In this document: positions 7,582 through 8,462 of the stretch, one piece after another
How positions within the stretch are numbered: the stretch's first letter is position 1
How the letters are laid out: each line of letters begins with the position of its first letter
Source of the DNA: Candidatus Saccharibacteria bacterium CG_4_10_14_0_2_um_filter_52_9
Lineage (GTDB): Bacteria; Actinomycetota; Acidimicrobiia; Acidimicrobiales; RAAP-2
Reading direction: 5' to 3'
NCBI GenBank assembly: GCA_903970515.1
Contig: CAJCJA010000034.1
Location: 62,001-126,000 of the forward strand
Length of the DNA stretch: 64,000 nt
Made by a program: the position numbers and the translations under genes
Notes under the pieces: model-generated
What the model was told of the DNA's origin: nothing
The model's database searches: none
Seen by the model: the letters and a program-made list of their open reading frames with translations, nothing else

Positions 7582-7958
7582 TACTTCGTTACCTTCTTCT
7601 TACCGGCGACGGTGCGCTTGGGTCCCTTGCGGGTGCGGGCATTGGTGCGGGTGCGCTGTCCGCGAACGGGCAGACCCTTGCGATGACGAATGCCCTGGAG
7701 GCAGTTGATCTCCATCTTGCGCTTGATGTCTTGGGCCACGTCGCGACGTAGGTCACCTTCGACGTTGACGTTCTGGTCGATGTAGGCGCGAAGCTTGTTG
7801 ACGTCAGCTTCGCTGAGGTCCTTCACGCGCGTGGACTCGTCGATCCCCGTCGCCGCGCAGATCTGCTGGGCGATGGTGGGTCCCACGCCAAAGATGTAGG
7901 TGAGCGAAATCACCGTACGCTTCTCGCGTGGGATGTCGACTCCGGCAATTCGGGCCAT
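7581..7958 (-). CDS. rpsM: 30S ribosomal protein S13
   Basis: Head protein at the subunit interface contacting P-site tRNA, 125 residues. Contains [31 protein letters not shown] and [20 protein letters not shown], with the basic Lys/Arg tail typical of the family. Confidence 0.99.
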
Positions 7959-7970
7959 GTTGTTCCTCTC

Positions 7971-8084
7971 CTAGCCCTGACGCTGCTTGTGACGCGGGTT
8001 CTCACAGATCACGCGGACGTGACCTGCCCTGCGAATGACTTTGCACTTCTCACACATGGGCTTTACGCTGGCGCGAACCTTCAT
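7971..8084 (-). CDS. rpmJ: 50S ribosomal protein L36
   Basis: A 37-residue zinc-ribbon protein, read directly from the minus strand: [14 protein letters not shown] at the start and [11 protein letters not shown] at the end. Zinc ligands Cys11, Cys14, Cys27 and His32 are all present, so this is the zinc-dependent form. It lies between infA and rpsM, the standard place for rpmJ. Confidence 0.97.
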
Positions 8085-8117: not shown

Positions 8118-8342
8118 TTACTTGTAGCGATAGGTGATGCGTCCGCGAGTCATGTCGTAGGGCGTAATCTCCACCTGAACCTTGTCGCCGGGAAGGATGC
8201 GGATGCGGTGCATGCGCATTTTTCCCGAACTGTGAGCGAGGACGGTGTAACCGTTCTCTAACTCCACGCGGAACATGGCGTTGGGTAGAGGCTCGACGAC
8301 GGTTCCCTCGACGGTGAACGCGTCTTCCTTTGGCTTACTCAG
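8118..8342 (-). CDS. infA: Translation initiation factor IF-1 with a CTG start codon
   Basis: Small S1/OB-fold factor that occupies the 30S A site during initiation. The 74-residue product reads [19 protein letters not shown] after the initiator, then [20 protein letters not shown], and ends [11 protein letters not shown], all canonical. The codon before Ser2 is CTG. An in-frame TGA lies ten codons further upstream, and no ATG, GTG or TTG occurs between them; the first internal ATG would remove 22 conserved residues. An AAGGAG element lies seven bases before the CTG, which fixes this start. A base error creating CTG cannot be excluded from one sequence. Confidence 0.93.
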
Positions 8343-8427
8343 GTTCCTTCTCCTTGTTCGGGCACTACGACGTCAAGGAGCAAAAACTCCTTCACGATTT
8401 GACCTCTCGGGCTCCCAAGAGGTCGGC
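8343..8427 (-). promoter_or_regulatory. infA leader with alternative Shine-Dalgarno pairings
   Basis: The region between the inferred transcription start and the CTG contains three elements in RNA order. A stem at 8401-8424 pairs GACCTCT with AGAGGTC. Next come AAGGAG (8387-8392) and CTCCTT (8375-8380), which pair as a hairpin. Last is the functional AAGGAG (8350-8355) before infA. The single CTCCTT can pair with either AAGGAG, so two mutually exclusive folds are possible, one exposing and one hiding the infA ribosome site. The pairing is seen in sequence; regulation is inferred. Confidence 0.5.
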
Positions 8428-8432
8428 TGACC

Positions 8433-8462
8433 ATTCTATCGTTCTTTGGCGCATATACACAA
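8433..8462 (-). promoter_or_regulatory. Candidate promoter for the infA-alpha operon
   Basis: Minus-strand TTGTGT (8457-8462) and TAGAAT (8433-8438) separated by 18 bases, in the 241-base gap between map and infA. Transcription would start near 8427, just ahead of the first leader hairpin. The element strengths are moderate. Confidence 0.5.

Follow-up and report, generated by a model that had tools for sequence, protein, structure and literature searches.

The infA locus and its leader

The window, by which we mean the whole 64-kb stretch of DNA that was analysed, contains the genes map, infA, rpmJ, rpsM, rpsK, rpsD, rpoA, rplQ and truA in this order, as read from the table of open reading frames (ORFs) and their translations. 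The source genome has a single infA, which encodes translation initiation factor IF1. Its reading frame opens after a TGA at 8375–8373 and runs without any ATG, GTG or TTG to a CTG, and an ORF finder restricted to those three triplets recovered only a 52-aa fragment of infA from position 8276. A preliminary description of this DNA had named a hairpin, two AAGGAG copies and one CTCCTT ahead of the CTG, and the coordinates of all these elements were confirmed on the minus strand. The features of the leader and the gene are as follows.

8433–8462, minus strand: putative promoter with a −35-like TTGTGT (8462–8457), an 18-nt spacer and a −10 TAGAAT (8438–8433), from sequence and conservation in the genus
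8401–8424, minus strand: stem-loop 1, 10 bp, at the likely 5' end of the RNA, from folding and covariation in the genus
8371–8396, minus strand: stem-loop 2, CGUGAAGGAGU-UUUU-GCUCCUUGACG, containing an AAGGAG copy and CTCCTT, from covariation in the genus
8392–8387, minus strand: AAGGAG copy in stem-loop 2, from sequence
8380–8375, minus strand: CTCCTT in stem-loop 2, from sequence
8350–8355, minus strand: true Shine-Dalgarno site AAGGAG, from invariant columns in the genus alignment and spacing to the CTG
8340–8342, minus strand: CTG start codon of infA, from sequence and relatives
8118–8342, minus strand: infA, translation initiation factor IF1, 74 codons and a stop, from the ORF table and translation

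Stem-loop 1, which reads GACCTCTTGG-GAGC-CCGAGAGGTC from 8424 to 8401, is the strong hairpin that had been placed at the predicted 5' end of the transcript. The hairpin is real, and the −10-like TAGAAT at 8438–8433 puts it at the likely start of the RNA, although a consensus scanner reported no sigma-70 match above threshold at the infA leader. The motif (G)(G/A)TAGAAT is retained at the −10 region in most leaders of the genus.

An Rfam search returned no family over the infA leader. The alpha operon ribosome binding site (RF00140), through which S4 controls translation in the same operon, is a pseudoknot located before rpsM, not infA. Its only match here was sub-threshold (17.2 bits, E 0.18) and lay around the rpsM start (7926–7980, minus strand); it could be a degenerate S4 site or a chance match.

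CTG as the start codon of infA across Acidimicrobiales

We read the region upstream of infA in the genus of the source genome, in 19 other genera of its family, in more than 50 families of the order, in other orders of the class and in other classes of the phylum; most of the genomes compared are metagenome assemblies. CTG occupied codon 1 at all 62 distinct loci of the genus, at all 42 from other genera of the family and at 66 of 74 from other families of the order, giving 170 of 178 distinct loci, and GGAG lay 5–8 nt upstream of the CTG at 167 of the 178. Two of the eight exceptions in the order (L101 and L184) had a CTG a few codons upstream. The replacement codons were mostly ATA, ATC or GTA, not ATG; the TTG or GTG found in a few divergent members of the order indicates that the trait can be lost. 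When the 30 nt upstream were surveyed at 78 loci of the order, 60 held CTG only and nine held CTG together with a distant canonical triplet, mostly without a Shine-Dalgarno site, while six held TTG or GTG only and three held neither (GTA, ATA and ATC). The internal leucine codons of infA are mixed (CTC, CTG, CTT, TTG, CTA and TTA), so the invariant CTG at the start does not reflect codon bias.

In sister families of the class, CTG, GTA, ATC or GTC was found in some and ATG, GTG or TTG in others, evidence that is weaker because the Shine-Dalgarno sites are poorer there. Among 33 loci sampled from other classes of the phylum, 26 had canonical starts only in this region and none had CTG alone. 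Judged from the sequences compared, a non-canonical infA start is a trait of the order Acidimicrobiales and of parts of its class.

It is extremely unlikely that infA uses another start codon or that the sequence is wrong: a canonical triplet does also lie within 30 nt upstream at 12 of 71 genus loci, but most of these triplets have no Shine-Dalgarno site, an in-frame stop lies at most 12 nt upstream of the CTG at many loci, and the occurrence of CTG in genomes from more than 50 families excludes assembly error. CTG is the only plausible infA start in the window. The start codon given in the preliminary description is thus real, and it is conserved in relatives.

The CTG overlaps a TGA in another frame (cTGA, 8339–8342) in nearly all members of the genus. 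We considered an upstream small ORF ending at this cTGA and rejected it; that frame lacks a start in 39 of 66 distinct leaders, which means that such coupling is not conserved. In one Acidimicrobiaceae genome the infA match spans 282 nt instead of the usual 222 (L215:1001–1282), which suggests a 20-codon insertion. Two genomes (G138 and G197) carry two infA copies each.

The downstream genes start differently. At 136 distinct loci with a non-canonical infA, rpmJ (136 loci) and rpsM (134 read) all start at ATG, GTG or TTG, and the non-canonical start is therefore a habit specific to infA. General use of CTG starts was rejected as an explanation, as neighbouring genes do not use CTG. A scan of the window for CTG spaced behind AGGAG found 7 occurrences vs. 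5.1 expected.

Non-canonical starts of infC, the IF3 gene, are already known, a property that infA seems to have gained as well. In the source genome, infC (L282; G000 C51) reads AAGGAG-TGAGTT-ATC, with ATC 6 nt after AAGGAG, and its sequence indicates that it most likely starts at this ATC; a finder limited to canonical triplets would take a GTG three codons later. In 29 further genomes of the order, nearly all readable infC genes had ATA or ATC behind a Shine-Dalgarno-like site, a few starts being left unread owing to differences in N-terminal length.

Two conserved stem-loops upstream of the ribosome site

Genomes of the same genus (Acidimicrobiales) yielded 66 distinct leaders, 43 of which were left at <88% identity. 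Two stems could be parsed in 41 of the 43, the divergent L045 and L049 being left out. The stems were chosen as the best local hairpin of each sequence, a procedure biased toward finding stems; the unbiased evidence comes from folding z-scores and column counts. The source leader folded better than its shuffles (z −2.42, and z −5.0 for the part upstream of the Shine-Dalgarno site), and the 43 genus leaders had a mean z of −2.67, with 29 below −2.

In a 38-row alignment, 13 of 18 pairs changed on both sides, which 0 of 500 shuffles matched. Compared with the shuffles, more cells paired (87.5% vs. 78.2%), more cells changed on both sides (67 vs. 26.8) and the covariation score was higher (0.345 vs. 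0.200); none of the 500 shuffles reached the observed value for pairing, both-side changes or covariation. Sliding the partner by 1–3 columns lowered pairing to 40–57%. For stem-loop 1, three of seven scored pairs had changes on both sides and 85.9% of cells paired; for stem-loop 2, the values were 10 of 11 and 88.5%. Stem-loop 2 is kept with quite different letters, such as GCGACGAG-CCG-CUCGUCGC or UCGACGG-UUCG-CCGUCGA, and is retained with unrelated letters in leaders such as L005, L051, L054 and L065. RNAalifold, applied to a sequence-only alignment, recovered stem-loop 2 only, because stem-loop 1 varies in length. These results demonstrate that both stem-loops are real RNA structure under selection in the genus and that stem-loop 2 is a fixed stem.

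A covariance model of the leader matched same-genus leaders only, among sources in which other genera were sampled. The same model found one strong leader copy in the source genome and no second. This single copy, the strong covariation of both stem-loops and their location at the start of a ribosomal-protein operon would suit an operator through which a product of the operon (e.g., S4, S13 or IF1 itself) exerts genus-specific autogenous control. We regard such an operator as improbable. Invariant sequence is scarce beyond the first bases of stem-loop 1 and loop lengths differ among the 41 leaders, an uncommon pattern for a protein-binding site; the leader matches no Rfam family; and the structure is absent from the other genera sampled, in which the CTG start is still present. 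Most likely, the stem-loops are simply a structure of the RNA 5' end, with a putative function there.

The preliminary description had combined these pieces into a bistable Shine-Dalgarno switch, in which CTCCTT pairs with either AAGGAG copy and thereby exposes or masks the ribosome site. Either pairing can be formed on paper in the source leader, where the forced alternative lies just 2.7 kcal/mol above the minimum (about 1.6% occupancy), and the 3' arm binds the true site somewhat better than shuffled arms do (−5.4 vs. −3.9 kcal/mol). Five of the 41 leaders place a predicted probability above 0.2 on pairing between the Shine-Dalgarno core and the 3' arm. Against this, the probability is 0.016 in the source leader and its median is 0.000, so that for most genomes almost no alternative helix is predicted, and the local stem is the first to form during transcription.

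The proposed layout of two site copies around one complement is rare in relatives. AAGGAG occurs in the 5' arm of stem-loop 2 in 7 of 41 leaders (GGAG in 24 of 41) and CUCCUU in the 3' arm in 4 of 41. Covariation analysis of homologous leaders, which the preliminary description had put forward as the check, supported the local stem through compensatory changes but supported neither the AAGGAG/CTCCTT letters nor pairing with the true site. Since the stem is kept by compensatory changes to different letters, these letters are not what is conserved. Between CTCCTT (columns 57–62) and the true site (columns 87–92), the 38-row alignment contained no pair with changes on both sides. The 72% of cells that do pair in this helix are explained by the invariance of the site and the many 3' arms that carry CUCC or CUC; two columns pair in less than half of the rows. 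RNA thermometers and translational riboswitches that hide a Shine-Dalgarno site also have stems adjoining the ribosome site, whereas the conserved stem here excludes the true site and the hiding pairing is not conserved. Thus, the pieces named at the outset are real, and the stem-loops and the CTG matter, but the two-way switch is not the conserved function of the leader. We consider the switch very improbable; one peculiar to a few species is possible.

Proposed start-codon autocontrol of infA

Start-codon autocontrol is a textbook case for IF3. We propose, by analogy, that infA carries autocontrol of this infC type, a reading whose chances of being right or wrong we take to be evenly balanced. 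The gene has the features of such control: it encodes an initiation factor with a part in start-codon discrimination, its non-canonical start is conserved, its Shine-Dalgarno site is strong and well spaced, and the arrangement is gene-specific. AUG, GUG and UUG are the only start triplets against which IF3 does not discriminate, and both IF3 and IF1 counteract locking when the ligands are non-canonical (PMC4611024). CUG complexes are unstable, and CUG accounts for 0.024% of bacterial starts (PMC11497404). With its AUU start, infC is regulated at the translational level (PMC1780047).

In the proposed mechanism, infA heads the infA-rpmJ-rpsM-rpsK-rpsD-rpoA-rplQ operon and would have its own promoter. 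The RNA in the genus would begin with two fixed stem-loops that probably protect the message and keep the ribosome site clear, with no switch involved. The regulatory element would be the start codon itself, IF1 being translated from a CUG behind a strong, well-placed Shine-Dalgarno site. This CUG would form an unstable initiation complex against which IF3 discriminates with the support of IF1. With initiation factors in ample supply compared with 30S subunits, initiation at CUG would be rejected and IF1 synthesis would drop; with the factors in short supply, IF1 synthesis would rise. The same logic has been demonstrated for E. coli infC with its AUU start. IF1, however, only assists IF3 in codon discrimination, so the loop may respond to IF3 more strongly than to IF1.

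Reduced output with no feedback is another possible effect of a poor start codon. The main rival to feedback is accordingly static tuning, in which CUG would do no more than hold IF1 output constantly low compared with that of the ribosomal proteins encoded in the operon. infA does share one operon with stoichiometric ribosomal proteins, the output from CUG in E. coli is 0.86% of that from AUG (PMC11497404), and a poor start codon is known to limit pcnB (PMC1780047). However, the Shine-Dalgarno site of infA is strong and well spaced everywhere, though output could most simply be cut by weakening it, and the replacement codons ATA, ATC and GTA are all non-canonical triplets. Given this evidence, we judge static tuning unlikely, if far from negligible.

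Autocontrol of infA would resemble that of E. coli infC with its AUU start in that an initiation-factor gene has a start codon against which the factors discriminate, placed behind a good Shine-Dalgarno site. It differs in concerning infA (IF1) and CUG and in extending through the order Acidimicrobiales and into parts of its class. The sequences show the anatomy, its conservation, its gene specificity and the non-canonical infC starts of the same order, whereas we infer the feedback and the role of the stem-loops. Chloroplast infA offers another parallel: it has a functional UUG start, a non-AUG start that strongly limits output (Hirose et al. 1999, cited in PMC9845219). UUG is, however, a canonical bacterial triplet that IF3 does not discriminate against, whereas CUG is not canonical. 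Our search of the open-access literature found no paper on a CUG start in bacterial infA, a result that does not prove absence. Genes that prefer non-AUG starts were reportedly the subject of a study by Gvozdjak and Samanta (arXiv, 2020).

In Acidimicrobiales, the genes for IF3 (ATA or ATC) and IF1 (CTG) appear both to start at codons that the factors reject. Tentatively, and with rather more doubt than confidence, we suggest that infA has joined the long-known infC loop, so that a single homeostatic circuit, reading how stringently starts are selected, would couple the levels of the two factors. In practice, gene finders that accept only ATG, GTG and TTG truncate or miss the essential infA gene across the order. 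If autocontrol of infA is true, an IF1 gene with the same signature, independent of its neighbours, would bring a second factor under the principle, and it would become testable whether start-codon stringency in cells is tuned by the level of IF1 alone.
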